Position numbers and translations under genes: made by a program. Of a stretch of DNA of 64,000 nt, positions 42,859 through 53,231 are shown in pieces (position 1 is the first letter of the stretch; each line of letters begins with the position of its first letter). Below the pieces are notes generated by a model, which had not been told where the DNA came from, did no database searches, and worked only from the letters and a program-made list of their open reading frames with translations. The stretch spans positions 1,426,001-1,490,000 of the forward strand of contig NZ_AHCF03000003.1 of NCBI RefSeq assembly GCF_000238275.3. The letters run 5' to 3'. This stretch comes from Pseudoalteromonas undina (GTDB lineage: Bacteria > Pseudomonadota > Gammaproteobacteria > Enterobacterales > Alteromonadaceae).

Positions 42859-43335
42859 TCAAAGCACTTCAACCACATCGTAACTATGTTTTAGATCACC
42901 GAGTGTTAAACTAACTTCATCATCGACTTGTTTACCTAATAACTGTTGCCCTAATGGTGCGCCAGAGGTAAGTACTTGAATGGTTGTGCCTTTAATATCA
43001 ACGGTTAATCCACCAGCTGCTGGGCCTAAATAAAACCATTTTTGTGTGCTGGCATCGTCTTCTAAACATACCAATGAGCTTATAACGACAGTGCCTGTAA
43101 CGGGTTCGTTGTATATGGCTTCAAATAGTTGTATTTCTTTATAGCACTCATTAACTCGCTCTGCATGGCCTTGTGCTAAATAGGCAGCTTCAAGCCCGAG
43201 GGTATCGTATTGGGTCTCTGCAATACTTTCTTCATGGGTAGCGGTATCGTGAGCTGTTTGAGCTGCAATTTTAGCAGTGTTTAGTTGCTCATCTAAGGCA
43301 AAACGAAGGTGCTCAGTAACATGGGCTTTATTCAT
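42859..43335 (-). CDS. GreA/GreB-family transcription factor-like protein
   Basis: 158-residue protein with the Gre layout. An N-terminal helical hairpin covers ~1-75 (AQTAHDTATHEESIAETQYDTLGLEAAYLAQGHAERVNEC). A C-terminal FKBP-like domain covers ~80-158 (VSSLVCLED-like, YLGPAAGG, VLTSGAPLGQQLLGKQVDDEVSL). It is not GreA or GreB proper. The acidic tip residues that drive transcript cleavage are not clearly in place, so it may compete with Gre factors or DksA in the RNA polymerase channel rather than cleave. It lies downstream of secF2, separated by a strong hairpin. Confidence 0.78.
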   Translation of the reverse strand: MNKAHVTEHLRFALDEQLNTAKIAAQTAHDTATHEESIAETQYDTLGLEAAYLAQGHAERVNECYKEIQLFEAIYNEPVTGTVVISSLVCLEDDASTQKWFYLGPAAGGLTVDIKGTTIQVLTSGAPLGQQLLGKQVDDEVSLTLGDLKHSYDVVEVL

Positions 43336-43376
43336 TTGGAAAATTCACTCAATTCGGTAAAAATAATTTTGCCATT

Positions 43377-43431
43377 TTAGCATTGTTGCTACATCGAACA
43401 CTATCCCTTTGCTGTGTAACAACAATGCTAA
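43377..43431 (-). terminator. Strong hairpin between secF2 and the Gre-like gene
   Basis: TTAGCATTGTTG and CAACAATGCTAA form a perfect 12-bp stem. On the minus-strand RNA one U-G pair and UAC/GUA extend it to about 16 bp, with a 23-base loop. It begins 10 bases after the secF2 stop. The T-rich tract is about 10 bases beyond, so it may protect the secDF2 mRNA end as well as terminate. Confidence 0.6.
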
Positions 43432-43440
43432 TATTTAAGG

Positions 43441-44370
43441 CTATGGCATATCCATTAATGCCTGCGTTTGCTGATCCACTTGCTTATCGTAGTTTTTAGC
43501 ACTTAACCCAAGTAGCTCAGGTAATGTAGCAGCAATACAAATAGACGACAGCGTGCCTACGACTATTCCTGCAAACAAAGCAATGGCAAACCCCTGCAGC
43601 GGCGCGCCAGCTAACAGCCAAACACTTGCCACTGTTGCGAGCGTAGTTCCTGAGGTAATAAGCGTACGAGTTAAGGTGCTTTTAATAGCACTGTTGATAA
43701 TACGACTTGGTTTTAGCGAAATATTTGTTGGTATGCGTAATAGCTCGCGTACTCTATCGCCCACTATTATTGAGTCATTTAGGGAGTAGCCAATAATTGC
43801 CAATAAACTGGCTAAAACGGTTAGGTTAAACTCTATTTGTAACCACGAAAATAAGCCAACCACCAGCACTAAATCATGTAATAAAGCCACCACAGAGCCT
43901 AATGCTAAACGCCACTCAAACCGAACAGCTAAATAAATCATTACCGCTACCATCGCAGCAAATAAGGCTAAGCAGCCTTGCTCAAATAATTCATCACCCA
44001 CTTGAGAGCCAATATAAGCCGATGATAAAACCTCAGCGTTTATATCTGGGTTTTGGCTAATCGCGGTTTTCCAAGCATCATTATTAGCTTCCTCACTTGG
44101 CGCTTGCGTTAATTGAAAATGATTATTGCCCTGTGCTGTAAGTTCAAATTCACCTTGATGGTTTTTAGCAATAAATTGCTCAAGCTGTTTTAGTTCAACA
44201 CCTTGGCTGGTGGTAAATTCTGTTAAATAACCACCCGTAAAATCAAGGCCAAAATTAAGCCCTTTTTGTGCAATGGTGAATACTGATAACAACACAAATA
44301 TGGCACTTATAAGCAAGCCTGTATAACGCATACGTGACCCTGTCTCACATTTTAAAAAAGTGTTAAGCAT
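43441..44370 (-). CDS. secF: Protein translocase subunit SecF, second copy (SecF2-like)
   Basis: Partner of SecD in the proton- or sodium-driven complex that helps pull preproteins across the inner membrane. 309 residues: TM1 at ~15-35, the periplasmic P4-type domain after NFGLDFTGGYLTEF, then five TM segments with ASLLAIIGYSLNDSIIVGDRVRELLR and LTRTLITSGTTLATV. The start overlaps the secD stop by eight bases. No yajC, tgt or queA genes are near, as would be expected for the primary locus, so this is probably the second, inducible copy. Confidence 0.9.
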   Translation of the reverse strand: MLNTFLKCETGSRMRYTGLLISAIFVLLSVFTIAQKGLNFGLDFTGGYLTEFTTSQGVELKQLEQFIAKNHQGEFELTAQGNNHFQLTQAPSEEANNDAWKTAISQNPDINAEVLSSAYIGSQVGDELFEQGCLALFAAMVAVMIYLAVRFEWRLALGSVVALLHDLVLVVGLFSWLQIEFNLTVLASLLAIIGYSLNDSIIVGDRVRELLRIPTNISLKPSRIINSAIKSTLTRTLITSGTTLATVASVWLLAGAPLQGFAIALFAGIVVGTLSSICIAATLPELLGLSAKNYDKQVDQQTQALMDMP

Positions 44371-46201
44371 GCGCGTTTACTCCTGCTTTTTTGCCCAGCT
44401 TTAAATATAAGCTTTGGCTTAAATATTTCGATACATACACACCAGTAAACACCGATGTAATAAGACCAAGCGCCAGCGTTATCGCAAAGCCTTTTACTGG
44501 GCCATATCCTATGCCATATAAAATAATCGCGGTGATCATGGTGGTAATATTGGCATCAAATATAGTATTAGCAGCCTGTTTATAACCCTCTTGGATTGCT
44601 TGATACGGGGGGCGACCTTTGCGACGCTCTTCTTTTATGCGTTCAAATATAATCACGTTAGTATCAACCGCCATTCCTATAGTTAATACTAAGCCTGCTA
44701 TCCCTGGAAGAGTTAAAACCACCCCAGGTAATAACGACATTAGCCCCACTAAAGAGGTTAAGTTTAAAATTAACGCAACATTTGCAATAAGCCCTAAACG
44801 GCGGTACCACAGTGCCATAAACGCAAGTGTTAAACCCATGCCTAACATTAACGCTGCTAATCCATTATTAATATTGTCTTGGCCAATGCTTGGGCCAATA
44901 GTTTGCTCATGCACTATCGTTACAGGCGCAGTAAGTGATCCTGCGCGTAGTAGTAGCGCTAAATCGGCAGCGGCTTGTTGGCTCTGCATATTGGTTATAC
45001 TAAACCGCGAGCTTAAATGCTGGGCAATGTTCGCCACATTAATGACTTCGCTTTTTTTAACCACTTCACCTTTAGCATTTTGTGAATACTCTGAATAGAG
45101 CGTTGCCATAGGTTTACCTATATTCGCCTTTGAAAAAGCCGACATAGCATCGCCACCTTGGCCATCTAAGCTCAGTTGTACCAAAGGTTTACCCCAGTCA
45201 TCACGGCCTATATTAGCGTTATTAATATGCTCACCGGTAAATATAGGTACAGGGTCGAGCTTAATAGTCCCTCCCGATTGCAAATTAAACGTTTGCCCGC
45301 CTCTCTCTTTAAGTTGATAAAACCCCAATGACGCGGTTGCACCAATTATGCGTTTTGCTTCAGCTGGATCTTGCACGCCAGGTAGCTCAATACGAATGCG
45401 CTGCTTACCTTGGCGCTGTGTAACGGCCTCAGTTATACCGAGCTCTTCTATGCGTGAGCGAAGTGTGGTGAGTGTTTGGCTCATCACTTCTTTATCAAAT
45501 GCGCTGCGCCCTTGCTCAGAATAGCTAATTTTAACGACCTGTAAGTTGCCATTAGTTGATGTGGTTGTAGTGAGGTTTTCAAAACGGCTTTTAAGCTCTT
45601 TTATGACAACTATTAGCTTATCACCAGCATTCTCAAGCGCACTTATTTCAAAGCCCTGATTAGTCTGCTTCGCTTTAACGCCATAGGCTTTTTGTTTAAC
45701 AATAATAGCTTTTGTTTGTTGATATGCACTGAGTAATTGCTCATCAACCGCTTTTTCTAAATCAACATCAAGTACAAACAATACCCCGCCGTTTAAATCA
45801 AGACCCAGCTTTATGGGCGATAAGCCAAACTCTTGTAACCAAATAGGGCTGGTTGCATGTTCAACAATTTTAACTTGTGTGTTTGGAAAGTTTGATTTTA
45901 AAGCCGCCTGAGCTTGGGCACTTTGCGTTGGTGTATTTAAAAGTACATTAATATTTGCTTGGTCTTTTAAACTTTCACTCACTTCAAAACCTTGGCTATT
46001 TAAAAAGCTAACTAGGTTTTCAGTACTTGGCATTACTTGCGTTTTAACATCAGAAGCTGCACTAATATGCAACCATGACTTATTCGGATATAAATTAGGT
46101 AAGGCGCTTATTGCTAGTAACACTAATACAATCAGCATGGCTACATAGCTCAATTTAAACTTAGCCTTAAATGGCTTTTTCTCTTTTTTTAGACTTAACA
46201 T
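44363..46201 (-). CDS. secD: Protein translocase subunit SecD, second copy (SecD2-like)
   Basis: 612 residues, like E. coli SecD. TM1 is ~17-37. Periplasmic P1 head and base domains include PIKLGLDLNGGVLFVLDVD and TLRSRIEELGITEAVTQRQGKQRIRIELPGVQDP. Six TM segments from ~450 contain LVLTIGMAVDTNVIIFERIKEE, with the conserved Asp. Translation starts at ATG 46201 with AAGGA six bases upstream. That ribosome-binding site is complementary to a segment just after the upstream VemP-like gene. The layout small-exported-peptide - secD - secF without yajC is that of the export-regulated SecDF2 of Vibrio. Confidence 0.92.
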   Translation of the reverse strand: MLSLKKEKKPFKAKFKLSYVAMLIVLVLLAISALPNLYPNKSWLHISAASDVKTQVMPSTENLVSFLNSQGFEVSESLKDQANINVLLNTPTQSAQAQAALKSNFPNTQVKIVEHATSPIWLQEFGLSPIKLGLDLNGGVLFVLDVDLEKAVDEQLLSAYQQTKAIIVKQKAYGVKAKQTNQGFEISALENAGDKLIVVIKELKSRFENLTTTTSTNGNLQVVKISYSEQGRSAFDKEVMSQTLTTLRSRIEELGITEAVTQRQGKQRIRIELPGVQDPAEAKRIIGATASLGFYQLKERGGQTFNLQSGGTIKLDPVPIFTGEHINNANIGRDDWGKPLVQLSLDGQGGDAMSAFSKANIGKPMATLYSEYSQNAKGEVVKKSEVINVANIAQHLSSRFSITNMQSQQAAADLALLLRAGSLTAPVTIVHEQTIGPSIGQDNINNGLAALMLGMGLTLAFMALWYRRLGLIANVALILNLTSLVGLMSLLPGVVLTLPGIAGLVLTIGMAVDTNVIIFERIKEERRKGRPPYQAIQEGYKQAANTIFDANITTMITAIILYGIGYGPVKGFAITLALGLITSVFTGVYVSKYLSQSLYLKLGKKAGVNAHA

Positions 46202-46206
46202 AGTTA

Positions 46207-46307
46207 TTCCTTATTACTAGGCATAGCCCAGTAACGTACCTATTAGGCACAATTAATCTGCAGGTCAAAACGCGATGCGTTAAAACCAATTAACATTAAA
46301 TAAGGAA
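46207..46307 (-). promoter_or_regulatory. secD2 translation switch: anti-SD element, internal hairpin and SD
   Basis: On the minus-strand RNA, UUCCUUAUU (46307-46299) begins three bases after the vemP-like stop. It is perfectly complementary to AAUAAGGAA (46215-46207), which contains the secD2 Shine-Dalgarno sequence; one further G-U pair is possible. A second hairpin, UUACUGGGC (46234-46226) with GCCUAGUAA (46222-46214), ends beside the SD and overlaps the long-range helix by two bases, so the two folds compete. A ribosome halted at the 3' end of the small gene should disrupt the long-range helix. Confidence 0.75.
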
Positions 46308-46309
46308 CT

Positions 46310-46771
46310 TTAAGCGTGATAGGTAGTTACAGCGGTGTATAACAGGTTAGCGTCTTTCCAGCCGCTCAAGCGCGACTTTTTACTTTTAAATAGCCAGGTA
46401 TACCAAGGCTGACTTATGTTGACTGCTTGCGGTCGCAAAAAAATATGCCTACACCCATTTAGGGCAAAAAACTCATGCACTACATCGTATTCAGGATCGC
46501 CCTGCGCACTATGTAGAAATAAAAATGAGTTATTGGCTGTTAACCTAGGTTGATGAGCATCAAAATCAGAATGCTTTGAGTTTTTGTGCTTTAAATTGCC
46601 AAGCGATTTTGTAGGTGTAGGAGTGTTAGTTAAATGGTCAACATTAACAATATCGGTAAGACTGCTTAAGTTACTGCCTAAACCCTGCTTTACGCTCATA
46701 GCATGGCTTTGCACACTAAAGAGTGCAGCAAAAAACAAGCATGTAGCGAAAAAAACGCGAAATTTAAACAT
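46310..46771 (-). CDS. vemP: VemP-like secreted export-monitoring arrest peptide
   Basis: 153-residue protein upstream of secD2-secF2. Residues 1-24 form a Sec signal peptide (basic start, hydrophobic FFATCLFFAALFSV, AXA-like site SHA). The middle is hydrophilic with no known domain. Near the end is SRLSGWKDANLLYTAV (residues 133-148), which resembles the arrest motif of Vibrio alginolyticus VemP as I remember it (an SGWK core with an essential Trp). The distance from this Trp to the C-terminus, 15 residues, is also similar. VemP stalls its own ribosome until export pulls it free and thereby controls SecDF2. Location, size and the downstream RNA element support the same role. The match is from memory and not from an alignment. 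Confidence 0.78.
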   Translation of the reverse strand: MFKFRVFFATCLFFAALFSVQSHAMSVKQGLGSNLSSLTDIVNVDHLTNTPTPTKSLGNLKHKNSKHSDFDAHQPRLTANNSFLFLHSAQGDPEYDVVHEFFALNGCRHIFLRPQAVNISQPWYTWLFKSKKSRLSGWKDANLLYTAVTTYHA

Positions 46772-46884
46772 TTGCCATTTAAAACTAAAATAAAGGATAG
46801 CTAGTATATAAGGGCAGCTAATTAAAATACAATAGCCGTTCTTAAGCTAATTCATTTATATAATATCAAATACTGAGATCCTCG

Positions 46885-48681
46885 ATGCGCTCCAGACAAA
46901 GTTCAGTAAAACGCCCCGACGCCATGAATTTAAAACAAAGCGTTCAAACTCTTTGGCCTTATATCACTAAGTTTAAAGGCCGTGTGCTGATTGCTATATT
47001 AGCGCTCATCGGTGCTAAAGGCGCGACATTACTCATGCCATGGGCTTTAAAAGAAATAATTGATTCGGTTGATAAATCAATTAATCCACTACTTCTTGTT
47101 CCTACTTTATTACTGATTATGTACGGCGCATTGCGCTTTGCTAGTGTATTTTTGGGTGAAGTACGCGATGGAGTATTTTCGCGAGTCACCGAGCATGCCA
47201 TGCGAGATATTGGACTTAAAGTGTTTAAACATTTGCACTCATTAGATTTAGCTTTTCATTTAGATAGGCAAACTGGCGGCATAAGTCGAGACATAGAGCG
47301 CGGCACCAGTGGCTTAAGCTTTTTAATGCGTTTTTTAATGTTTAATATTGTGCCCACGTTGTTTGAAATAATGACTGTGGCGATTATTTTTGGCAGCTTG
47401 TTTTCTATTTGGTTTGCGCTGATCACCCTATTGGCTGTGGCTATTTATATTTTTTTTACCGTGACGGTTACCCAATGGCGAAACCGCTTTATTCGTGAGT
47501 CAAATGCTGCCGACAACCAAAGTAATACCCGCGCCATCGACAGTTTATTAAATTACGAAACCGTAAAATACTTTAATAATGAACAGCATGAAGCCCAAAC
47601 TTACGACACATTTTTAGCAACCTGGGAACAAGCACGATTAAAAAATCGACTCTCGTTACTGGTGCTTAATTCAGGGCAAGCGCTGATCATTGCGTGTGCA
47701 ATAACCGCATTAATGTGGCTTGGTGCCAATGAAGTGGTCACCGGCGAGTTAACGATTGGTGAACTGGTAATGATTAACGCGTATATGATTCAGCTTTTTT
47801 TACCCCTTAACTTTTTGGGGTTTGCGTACCGTGAAATACGCCGCGCTCTTACCGACCTTGAAAACATGCTTGGATTACTAAATACCTCTCCCAAAGTAGC
47901 AGATAGCGAAACCGCGCAACCATTAGCACTCAAAAATGGGGCAATTAGCTTTGAAAACGTCAGCTTTAGCTACGATAGCAAGCGTCCTATTCTTAAGAAT
48001 GTCAGTTTTCATGTAAATCCTGGTGCTAAGGTAGCGGTTGTAGGTGCTAGTGGCGCAGGTAAAAGCTCGTTAGCCCGCTTGTTATACCGTTTTTATGAAC
48101 TTTCATCGGGCGCGATTAAAATTGATAATCAAGCCATAAACACGGTCACCTTGGCAAGTTTGCGTGAAGCTATTGCCATAGTGCCGCAAGATACTGTGTT
48201 ATTTAATACCAGCATACGCGAAAATATTCACTACGGCAGACCCAGCGCCAGTGAAGATGAAGTAAACAAAGCCATAAACATGGCGCACCTAACAGACTTT
48301 ATTAATAGCCTAGATAAAGGCGATAAAACCTTGGTAGGCGAACGCGGACTAAAAGTCTCTGGTGGCGAAAAACAACGTATTGCTATTGCTCGCGCTATTT
48401 TAAAACAATCGCCAATTTTAATTTTTGACGAAGCCACTTCGGCGCTGGACTCACAATCTGAGCAAGCCATATTAAATGCTATGCGAGAAGTTGCCTCTAA
48501 TCATACCAGTATTGTTATTGCGCACCGCTTATCAACAATTACCGATGCCGATACAATTATCGTACTCAAAGCGGGAGAAGTACTAGAACAAGGTAAACAT
48601 GATGAATTACTCATGCAAAATGGTGAATATGCGCACATGTGGACCTTACAACAAAAGCAGTCAAAGGCTGCAATAAACTAA
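46885..48681 (+). CDS. Atm1-like ABC transporter (fused permease-ATPase)
   Basis: 598-residue half-transporter. Six TM helices lie in ~30-320, and QTGGISRDIERGTSGLSFLMRF and SLLNYETVKYFNNEQHEA are the hallmark of the Atm1/HMT1 class that exports glutathione-linked metal or sulfur compounds. The nucleotide-binding domain shows Walker A GASGAGKSS (387-395), signature VSGGEKQRIAIARAI and Walker B ILIFDEATSALD. It probably works as a homodimer in the inner membrane. It is divergent from the vemP-like gene. Confidence 0.9.
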   Translation: MRSRQSSVKRPDAMNLKQSVQTLWPYITKFKGRVLIAILALIGAKGATLLMPWALKEIIDSVDKSINPLLLVPTLLLIMYGALRFASVFLGEVRDGVFSRVTEHAMRDIGLKVFKHLHSLDLAFHLDRQTGGISRDIERGTSGLSFLMRFLMFNIVPTLFEIMTVAIIFGSLFSIWFALITLLAVAIYIFFTVTVTQWRNRFIRESNAADNQSNTRAIDSLLNYETVKYFNNEQHEAQTYDTFLATWEQARLKNRLSLLVLNSGQALIIACAITALMWLGANEVVTGELTIGELVMINAYMIQLFLPLNFLGFAYREIRRALTDLENMLGLLNTSPKVADSETAQPLALKNGAISFENVSFSYDSKRPILKNVSFHVNPGAKVAVVGASGAGKSSLARLLYRFYELSSGAIKIDNQAINTVTLASLREAIAIVPQDTVLFNTSIRENIHYGRPSASEDEVNKAINMAHLTDFINSLDKGDKTLVGERGLKVSGGEKQRIAIARAILKQSPILIFDEATSALDSQSEQAILNAMREVASNHTSIVIAHRLSTITDADTIIVLKAGEVLEQGKHDELLMQNGEYAHMWTLQQKQSKAAIN

Positions 48682-51953: not shown

Positions 51954-53231
51954 TTGAATACCCTTTCACAACTTCGAAGCGGCCAATTGCTTGGTGCAAC
52001 ACATCTACAATTGGTTGAAACGCTAAGCGACTTTCCTGAAGAAATTTTTACACTTGCTGATACCCTCGAAGTCTTGGATTTATCAAATAACAATTTATCT
52101 GATTTACCTGATGGATTTGCTTGCTTAACAAAATTAAAACGACTGTTTTTGTCGTTTAATCAGTTTAACCATATACCTAAAATACTCGCTAAGTGCCCCG
52201 CTCTTATTATGGTTGCCTTTAAAGGTAACCAAATAACTGAGTTTGCAGATAACAGCCTGCCTAAAGCGATTGAATGGCTTATTCTTACAGATAATAAAAT
52301 AGCCAAACTGCCTGCAACATTTGGCCAATACACTGCGCTTAAAAAGCTGGCTTTGGCAGGTAACCAACTCAGTGCTCTACCAACAAGCATGGCAAACTGC
52401 CATAACTTAGAACTAATTAGACTCTCTGCAAATCAATTAACTCATGTTGATGATTGGCTATTTGAACTTCCTAAGCTTACTTGGCTTGCATTTGCAGGTA
52501 ATTGCTTTAATAAATCACAGTGCCTTACCCAATCAAATTTAACCAATAAACCACTGAGTGACTACTCGCTCAGTAAAGTAATAGGCCAAGGCGCATCAGG
52601 AATTATTCATCTTGCTTATTCAACAAATAAAGAGCCGGTTGCTGTTAAGTTATTTAAAGGGAGTATTACAAGCGATGGTTATCCGCTGGATGAAGTTAAT
52701 TGCTGCTTGCAAGCGCTTGAGCATCCAAACTTAATTAAAGTACTGGCTTACATTGAACAACAGCAGCAGCTTGGTTTAGTGATGGAGTTAATTGATTCAA
52801 GCTTTACGAATCTAGGCTTACCTCCCAGCCTTGATACCTGTACTCGTGATACATTTGAAAGCGATTGCCATTACTCTGCCGATACAATTTATAGCATTGC
52901 AAAGCAAATGGTTAGTACTGTGGCACACTTGCACCAACACAATATAAGCCATGGTGACATTTATGCGCACAATACTATGGTAAACGCGCAAGCAAGGGTT
53001 CTGTTTGGTGATTTTGGCGCAGCTACTGATCTTACTATGCTGAGTGATTATCAACGTCAACAAATGCAATTAATAGAAGTGCGCGCTTTAGGGTGTTTAA
53101 TTGAGGACTTACTTACCACCTGCCACGAGCAAAGTGCTGAAGTAATGCACTTACAACATATTTCGCAGCAATGCATGAGCGAAAATGTTGCACAGCGGCC
53201 AACGCTTAGAGTATTAGCTGACTTTTTATGA
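51954..53231 (+). CDS. Leucine-rich-repeat protein kinase (TTG start)
   Basis: 425 residues combining LRRs and a eukaryote-like kinase. About seven LRRs lie in ~15-190 (repeated LxxLxLSxNxLxxLP form, e.g. LEVLDLSNNNLSDLPDGF, LKKLALAGNQLSALPTSM). The kinase domain is ~205-425: glycine loop IGQGASGIIHLAY, Lys232 in PVAVKLF, catalytic HGD with Asp335 (SHGDIYAHNTM), and DFG with Asp353. HRD is replaced by HGD, as in some bacterial and small-molecule kinases, but Lys, Asp and DFG remain, so it may be active. The start is a TTG with only GGAT as a weak site; no ATG fits. No phosphatase or FHA partner is adjacent. Confidence 0.83.
   Translation: MNTLSQLRSGQLLGATHLQLVETLSDFPEEIFTLADTLEVLDLSNNNLSDLPDGFACLTKLKRLFLSFNQFNHIPKILAKCPALIMVAFKGNQITEFADNSLPKAIEWLILTDNKIAKLPATFGQYTALKKLALAGNQLSALPTSMANCHNLELIRLSANQLTHVDDWLFELPKLTWLAFAGNCFNKSQCLTQSNLTNKPLSDYSLSKVIGQGASGIIHLAYSTNKEPVAVKLFKGSITSDGYPLDEVNCCLQALEHPNLIKVLAYIEQQQQLGLVMELIDSSFTNLGLPPSLDTCTRDTFESDCHYSADTIYSIAKQMVSTVAHLHQHNISHGDIYAHNTMVNAQARVLFGDFGAATDLTMLSDYQRQQMQLIEVRALGCLIEDLLTTCHEQSAEVMHLQHISQQCMSENVAQRPTLRVLADFL

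Follow-up and report, generated by a model that had tools for sequence, protein, structure and literature searches.

A putative VemP-type arrest leader before secD2-secF2 in Pseudoalteromonas undina, and related tails before other envelope genes

Our comparisons suggest that the small open reading frame preceding the second secD-secF pair of Pseudoalteromonas undina encodes an export-sensing arrest leader of the VemP type, a variant in its PTC-proximal residues. We put the probability of this reading, which is drawn from sequence, at about 0.86. The leader lies in a window of 64,000 nucleotides, by which we mean the whole stretch of DNA that was analysed (contig NZ_AHCF03000003.1, positions 1,426,001 to 1,490,000).

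The leader and the second secD-secF set

In the window, the leader is followed by a gap of 108 nt, by secD2 and then by secF2. Because the other secD of the same genome, 42% identical to that of the window, has YajC upstream, we take the pair in the window to be the second, yajC-less set. The features of the locus are the following.

46310..46771, minus strand: putative VemP-type leader ORF, 153 codons (153 aa), with its ATG start at 46771 and its TAA stop at 46312-46310
46700..46771, minus strand: signal-peptide-like start, residues 1-24, recognised by eye and conserved in the 34-row alignment
46502..46546, minus strand: conserved middle element, residues 76-90, RLTANNSFLFLHSAQ, from the alignment; its F-x-H-x-x-Q is common to S41-type leaders
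46400..46408, minus strand: PWY, residues 122-124; of the 59 secD-type leaders in the window's family, 48 have a Trp at this place
46313..46372, minus strand: putative arrest motif, R134-A153, RLSGWKDANLLYTAVTTYHA, from the alignment, the VemP comparison, the profile and dN/dS
46300..46308, minus strand: predicted 5' arm of the stem, GUUCCUUAU, beginning 1 base past the leader stop codon (folding prediction)
46206..46214, minus strand: predicted 3' arm of the stem, AUAAGGAAU, containing the secD2 Shine-Dalgarno AAGGA at 46212-46208 (folding prediction)
44363..46201, minus strand: secD2, the proposed target, from a domain match and the tree
43441..44370, minus strand: secF2, overlapping the end of secD2, from a domain match

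An earlier note on this DNA had described a small exported-type ORF of no known domain in front of a yajC-less secD-secF pair. This is confirmed by the gene order and by searches of Pfam and NCBIfam, in which the leader protein had zero matches. Comparison with solved structures gave nothing up to E 10, and an Rfam scan of 43000-47500 returned zero families reaching the gathering score. Promoter and terminator scans of 46150-46960 found 1 and 0, respectively, against 1.8 and 1.0 in shuffled sequences. A divergent ABC transporter gene (46885-48681) occupies the leader's other side. Immediately downstream of secF2, a GreA/GreB C-terminal-like protein is encoded at 42859-43335 (minus strand), and elsewhere in the window a 425-residue protein joins leucine-rich repeats to a protein kinase domain (51954-53231, plus strand).

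VemP systems are distinguished by a first secDF set that is sodium-driven and a second that is proton-driven. Among 22 genomes, a YajC-like ORF was found upstream of 14 of the 14 SecD1 loci examined (21 are listed), three of these ORFs being checked by Pfam and the others by eye. All 16 SecD2 loci of these genomes had a leader, of Trp type in 13 and of Cys type (see below) in 3. In a tree of 30 rows, the split between SecD1 and SecD2 has 100/100 support.

Conservation of the tail and its likeness to VemP

The C-terminal tail of the leader reads SRLSGWKDANLLYTAVTTYHA. The earlier note had feared that homology searches could miss this protein, but phmmer gives 68 relatives at E <= 1e-3, 33 of which were aligned with the window leader (34 rows). 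Conservation is highest over the last 20 residues; the start and residues ~74-102 are also kept, and the rest is freer. The same note had staked its proposal on conservation of SGWK among orthologues, and on this point it stands, the tail being present in 33 of the 34 rows. The exception, P0068, has 107 aa, a C-terminal half that fails to align, and no tail. In the 59 secD-type leaders of the window's family, R is kept in 95%, G in 98%, W in 100%, K in 97%, N in 95% and Y in 98%. Their C-terminal end has T in 88%, Y in 91%, H or L in 50 of 58 and S in 84%.

Several observations bear on the level at which selection acts. Across 5 Pseudoalteromonas leaders, dN/dS is 0.07 in the tail versus 0.22 in the middle, and the residues of the tail motif are written in varied codons, R by 5 and one Ser position by 6. 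The motif Lys is encoded by AAA in 57 of 57 leaders, and this position is therefore uninformative on peptide-level selection. Since the other residues are kept across codon changes at low dN/dS, the tail is under purifying selection at the level of the peptide. A leader acting as RNA only was rejected, given the codon variety at fixed residues and the dN/dS of 0.07.

To compare the tail with the VemP sequence printed in PMC5449182, we used as its BLASTP stand-in P0069 of Vibrio parahaemolyticus, 98% identical to VemP. Residues 134-150 of the window leader align with residues 139-155 of P0069 with 8 of 17 identical, 13 similar and no gap; a comparison of this kind had been proposed in the earlier note. 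The window leader and VemP have in common, ungapped, R-x-S-G-W-K-x-x-N-x-x-Y-x-A. The likeness of the SGWK core described in the earlier note thus holds, and that of the spacing to the C-terminus holds approximately, W being 16 from the end (counted inclusively) versus 17 in VemP. The window leader is identical to VemP at R139, W143, K144 and Y150, which in the tunnel contact A752, uL22, U747 and C2610, respectively (PMC5449182, section 8). It also fits the consensus RxxxWKxxNxxY (with R134, W138, K139, N142 and Y145), by which Fujiwara et al. classified uORFs as VemP-like (PMC10987492, section 20). The PTC-proximal residues L153, N154 and Q156, which VemP needs, are replaced by V148, T149 and Y151 in the window, and for this reason we regard the leader as a variant and not as VemP itself. 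The replacements count against a VemP-type arrest, since in the alanine scan described in PMC5449182 17 of the 19 positions of the VemP arrest segment matter.

The likeness extends to other features. VemP of Vibrio also lies before a second secDF set, has the tail motif and is followed by a predicted stem over the secD2 Shine-Dalgarno; where VemP has a Sec signal peptide, the window leader has a start that by eye resembles one. The two differ at their ends, LNSQFSA in VemP and VTTYHA in the window: VemP goes on from ALNSQ into variable ends, whereas window-type leaders end nearly flush with the stop. In VemP, Arg-85 follows a short hydrophobic segment at a distance of three residues (PMC11470409), whereas the window leader has, by eye, a hydrophobic patch (FLFL, 83-86) without Arg so placed.

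The differences at the end might instead reflect an export-sensing arrest of another geometry, in which the ribosome comes to rest on the stop codon or beside it, with T-Y-[HL]-[SA]-stop at the peptidyl transferase centre, nearer to the NAP-stop class. This would suit the nearly flush end, the placing of W (at 16 residues from the end in 60 of 65 leaders of the window's family) and, unlike VemP, the conservation of T, Y, H or L, and S up to the stop (88%, 91%, 50 of 58 and 84%). Yet R, GWK, N and Y stand at VemP spacing, ungapped, which favours the same tunnel contacts, and we consider the other geometry an unlikely, if respectable, alternative to the VemP-type arrest.

Could the resemblance to VemP be due to chance? 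We searched with a profile (A3) made of 30 tails from the window's family and containing zero Vibrio rows. Of 394 genomes of the order, 82 gave a match; they represent 18 of 114 genera, in 10 families. VemP proper is among the matches (L144, SGWKETNAMYVALNSQFSA, is an example). The next gene was secD in 74 of 85 matches, 4 of the 85 coming from genomes already matched by a full-length profile (A1). Over 321 genomes of the class, A3 matched three: the window's own, another member of the family, and one chance frame (E 9.7e-4, with an internal stop). As the order-level matches include VemP and the class level is nearly silent, the profile appears specific with VemP within its reach, and chance resemblance was rejected on this comparison. 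When the whole family was compared with Vibrio VemP by profile, only 26 columns aligned, around the signal peptide, and the middle had no similarity, as the earlier note had judged for the rest of the protein. We therefore claim homology, on these alignments, for the two tails only; that of the middle is unproven.

Other known monitors share parts of this arrangement. The RAPP-like uDF_RQH_Enterobacterales of an Alteromonas is a uORF of secDF2 with a signal, an arrest tail and a stem over the Shine-Dalgarno, and its arrest induces secDF2, as its authors showed (PMC10987492). Its tail, however, is of the R-A-P-P kind, whereas the window leader has no proline after P122 and no R/Q/H-A/G-P-P-like C-terminal motif. 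SecM (secA) and MifM (yidC2; PMC7897499) also monitor export or insertion by acting on the next gene, but with other targets and with arrest motifs that have no similarity to that of the window. The uDF_NAP-stop and uA_NSP-stop leaders of Bacteroidota have a conserved end flush with the stop (PMC10987492, section 6), but it is NAP or NSP where the window has YHA. A tail of SecM, RAPP or NAP-stop type was rejected for the window leader, these motifs being absent.

The predicted stem and a proposed mechanism

The stem predicted over the secD2 Shine-Dalgarno has a free energy of -36.8 kcal/mol (z -3.58), and 0 of 200 shuffles were as good. The predicted pairing of the Shine-Dalgarno with the stop-codon region is 0.53-0.88 in 9 of 9 secD loci of the same genus (a near-identical pair included), against 0.05-0.34 in shuffles. 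Over all 57 loci tested in the family, mean pairing is 0.36 versus 0.13 in shuffles, and it exceeds 0.5 in 26 of 57. A halted ribosome that reaches into such a stem is the scheme given for vemP-secD2 in PMC5449182, and mutations demonstrated it for a different leader, one of an Alteromonas (PMC10987492).

We propose that the window ORF serves as a monitoring substrate of the VemP type. Its signal peptide would bring the nascent chain to the Sec translocon, and the tail, from PWY through RLSGWKDANLLYTAVTTYHA, would bind the exit tunnel and stop translation in the final few codons unless the chain is pulled by export. The halted ribosome would intrude on the stem masking the secD2 Shine-Dalgarno and open it, so that SecD2F2 would be made when export is slow. 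Ribosomes extend about 15 nt beyond the P-site. If the P-site were at Y151, which aligns with Q156 of VemP, the ribosome would reach 3 or 4 bases into the first arm. The gene order, the peptide-level conservation of the tail, its homology with the VemP tail and the predicted stem come from our data; stalling and the codon at which it happens, relief by export and the rise in secD2F2 expression are what we infer.

Two other roles were considered. The stem begins 1 base past the stop, so a terminating ribosome would disturb it, and the leader could merely couple translation, its passage opening the stem with neither stall nor sensing. The signal peptide would then have no role, however, and residues are kept while codons change (dN/dS 0.07); we find such coupling highly improbable. 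The leader could also be a working periplasmic partner of SecD2F2, its tail being kept for a function after export, which would fit the signal peptide and the presence of a leader at 16 of the 16 SecD2 loci examined. But the middle is mostly free, and only the tail has a counterpart in VemP, whose action in the ribosome tunnel is established (PMC5449182). Such a partner would also be unexpected before S41, yqjA or chaA genes, and we think this role improbable.

Related leaders across the order and their target genes

The full-length profile A1 matched 65 of 295 family genomes, in 17 of 52 genera, including 10 of 16 same-genus genomes, one of which (G018) has an S41-type leader with a degenerate motif. 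secD is the next gene in 59 of the 65 matches, 57 with a placed start and 2 on fragmentary or broken loci. Four of the six same-genus genomes lacking a match have a single SecD, of the first type; the other two (G064 and G267) have secD2 behind a different leader, which we call Cys type. Its tail is I-[DN]-[ND]-C-[KRQ]-P-A-N-L-T-[YF], with PWY and F-L-[HD]-x-x-Q kept, the GWK core being replaced by (N/D)C(K/R/Q) in one secD2 lineage. Cys-type leaders precede secD2 in 6 of 295 family genomes (7 matches, one of them an SGWK leader), and the three SecD2 proteins behind such leaders in the tree form one clade. The Trp altered in W143A, which is employed as a mutation of the VemP arrest motif (PMC7793623), is thus absent in nature from Cys-type leaders. 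In Marinobacter nauticus (L268), one of the secD cases of the pattern scan described below, a leader with RLGGWKESNQLY precedes secD, perhaps by transfer out of the order.

Cys-type leader loci: L282, L283, L284, L306-L311

A second kind of target is a peptidase. In 6 of 65 family matches of A1, the next gene encodes an S41 peptidase with a signal-like start; Pfam PF03572 was found in 5 of the 5 S41 proteins submitted. Four more S41 loci lie in two other families (2 Pfam-checked). When a profile of six S41-type leaders was compared with the window's family, 74 columns matched at 99.1%, with F-x-H-x-x-Q and PW among them. Four S41-type leaders (L062, L070, L071 and L072) have, by eye, a second hydrophobic stretch before PW. 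Stem pairing in the S41 type was 0.65-0.98 in 7 of 9 loci and 0.47 and 0.24 in the others, against 0.15-0.33 in shuffles (L069 was omitted and the second ATG taken for L070); L106 and L112 have long stems beginning at the stop codon. The S41 loci L347 (G030) and L346 (G045) have tails with degenerate cores, one without Trp, and are weak relatives. Another weak relative with a degenerate core (L345, G053) precedes a possible metallopeptidase whose Pfam score is below the cut-off. Relatives picked out by leader similarity include those of Colwellia, Thalassotalea profundi, Paraglaciecola marina and Pseudoalteromonas, the gene behind being read only where the relative equals a fetched locus. The S41-type profile matched 45 of 295 genomes of the order, which is not a count of S41 leaders, because 13 of the 16 loci returned were secD-type leaders matched crosswise and 3 were S41.

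Loci where the leader immediately precedes the gene of an exported S41 peptidase, in most cases with a stem masking its Shine-Dalgarno: L062, L069, L070, L071, L072, L073, L093, L106, L112, L124, L242

A third target is a DedA gene. In family f18 it follows the leader in 18 of 18 matches (18 of 246 genomes, 12 of 154 genera), some of these genomes having also contributed rows to the search profile. At L088, ExuR lies upstream and MzrA downstream of DedA, and from the E. coli gene order exuR-yqjA-mzrA we take the DedA protein behind these leaders to be YqjA. Most rows of the yqjA-type tail read R-x-G-G-W-K-E-S-N-x-x-Y-R-G-x-L-T-Y-H-S, dN/dS is 0.12 in this tail and 0.27 in the middle (9 sequences), and hhalign matches the type to the window's family at 96.4% over 81 columns. 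The stem test gave pairing above 0.5 in 0 of 15 yqjA-type loci; in a looser test, the stretch after the stop was the best complement, within the gap, of the stretch from Shine-Dalgarno to start in 7 of 17. The linkage of leader and yqjA is firm, and its control is not firm. MzrA at L088 has a SecD-TM1 domain, also found in SecD (window 44363-46201), a possible link between the two targets.

Leaders before YqjA-type DedA: L088, L110, L111, L113, L313-L328, L348, L349
Leaders before YqjA-type DedA, pattern-scan loci (Serratia, Yersinia, Hafnia, Edwardsiella and relatives): L163, L164, L166, L177, L183, L185, L187, L197, L202, L204, L205, L228, L237, L243, L251, L256, L277

A scan of genomes with the motif pattern gave at least 119 stretches; among the matches listed, the motif is near the C-terminus in 108 and internal or due to chance in 11. 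The gene behind, again among the matches listed, is secD in 79 (76 by BLAST or read at the locus edge, 3 from SecD starts recognised by eye), a YqjA-kind DedA gene in 17 (Yersinia 7, Serratia 6, and Hafnia, Edwardsiella, Edaphovirga and Enterobacillus 1 each), and ChaA in 3 (Photobacterium frigidiphilum, Vibrio proteolyticus and V. inusitatus). Of the other matches listed, 2 have a RodA-like gene behind the leader (P. lutimaris and P. pectinilyticum), and one each has a DedA gene at a distance of 451 nt (P. lutimaris), an S41 gene (in a MAG) or an FtsX/MacB-like permease (in a Pseudohongiella MAG); in 4, at locus ends, the gene behind was unreadable. Among the same matches, secD follows the leader in 11 of 12 from Pseudoalteromonas, one being at a locus edge, and Photobacterium lutimaris has three such leaders, two of them before non-secD genes. 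The order of genes is leader, ChaA, DedA at L104 and leader, DedA, RodA-like at L157. The leader before the permease (L179, 6151-6576, plus strand) carries RLSGWKDGNFQY, with W 16 from the end. Counts from the pattern scan and the profile searches are not additive, because species overlap between the sets.

Further-target loci in Vibrio and Photobacterium: ChaA, L104, L186, L229, L247; DedA at +451, L222; RodA-like, L157, L180, L203

The earlier note had proposed a diverged VemP in Pseudoalteromonas-like bacteria. Position, tail and stem agree with a diverged VemP outside Vibrio, and its scope was underestimated, since the tails reach ten families and several kinds of target genes. We lean, with some reserve, towards the view that export-sensing arrest leaders form a superfamily across the order, in which VemP is a single branch. 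Such leaders would share the tail R-x-[SAG]-G-W-K-x-x-N-x-x-Y and would stand before secDF2, exported S41 peptidases, yqjA (DedA) accompanied by mzrA, chaA accompanied by a DedA gene, and RodA-like genes. Sec activity, read via the ribosome, would thus tune several envelope functions, and one secD2 lineage has replaced the GWK core.

How much of this is already in print? VemP is treated as a Vibrio device in the relevant parts of PMC11470409, PMC7793623 and PMC7897499. Fujiwara et al. (2024) reported 339 VemP-like uORFs with the consensus RxxxWKxxNxxY; Pseudoalteromonas may be among them, the taxa being listed in the supplement of that paper (PMC10987492). Our literature searches found no relevant report on VemP in Pseudoalteromonas, Shewanella or Serratia or with DedA, which leaves absence from print unproven, nor any on arrest at Pseudoalteromonas secDF or on an upstream ORF of yqjA. 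The single occurrence of "VemP" in a Pseudoalteromonas paper proved to be the name of an author. The supplement of PMC10987492 aside, they also found no report of VemP-tail leaders before S41, yqjA, chaA or RodA-like genes, or of the Cys type. As described in PMC10987492, its screen covered uORFs of secA, secDF and yidC; targets beyond these genes would be invisible to a screen of this type, because it took the neighbours of those genes.

Few arrest peptides have been seen in a ribosome structure, and VemP is among them. The natural variants described here (VTTYHA ends, GWQ, YWK and the Trp-less Cys type) are ready-made mutants that can show which tunnel contacts are needed. If the leaders stall, an arrest module is distributed across ten families of a single order and has been recruited to targets beyond secDF. 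Through a leader before yqjA, Sec activity in enteric bacteria would be coupled to a DedA protein. That the tail recurs in front of other envelope genes is more surprising than the window leader itself.
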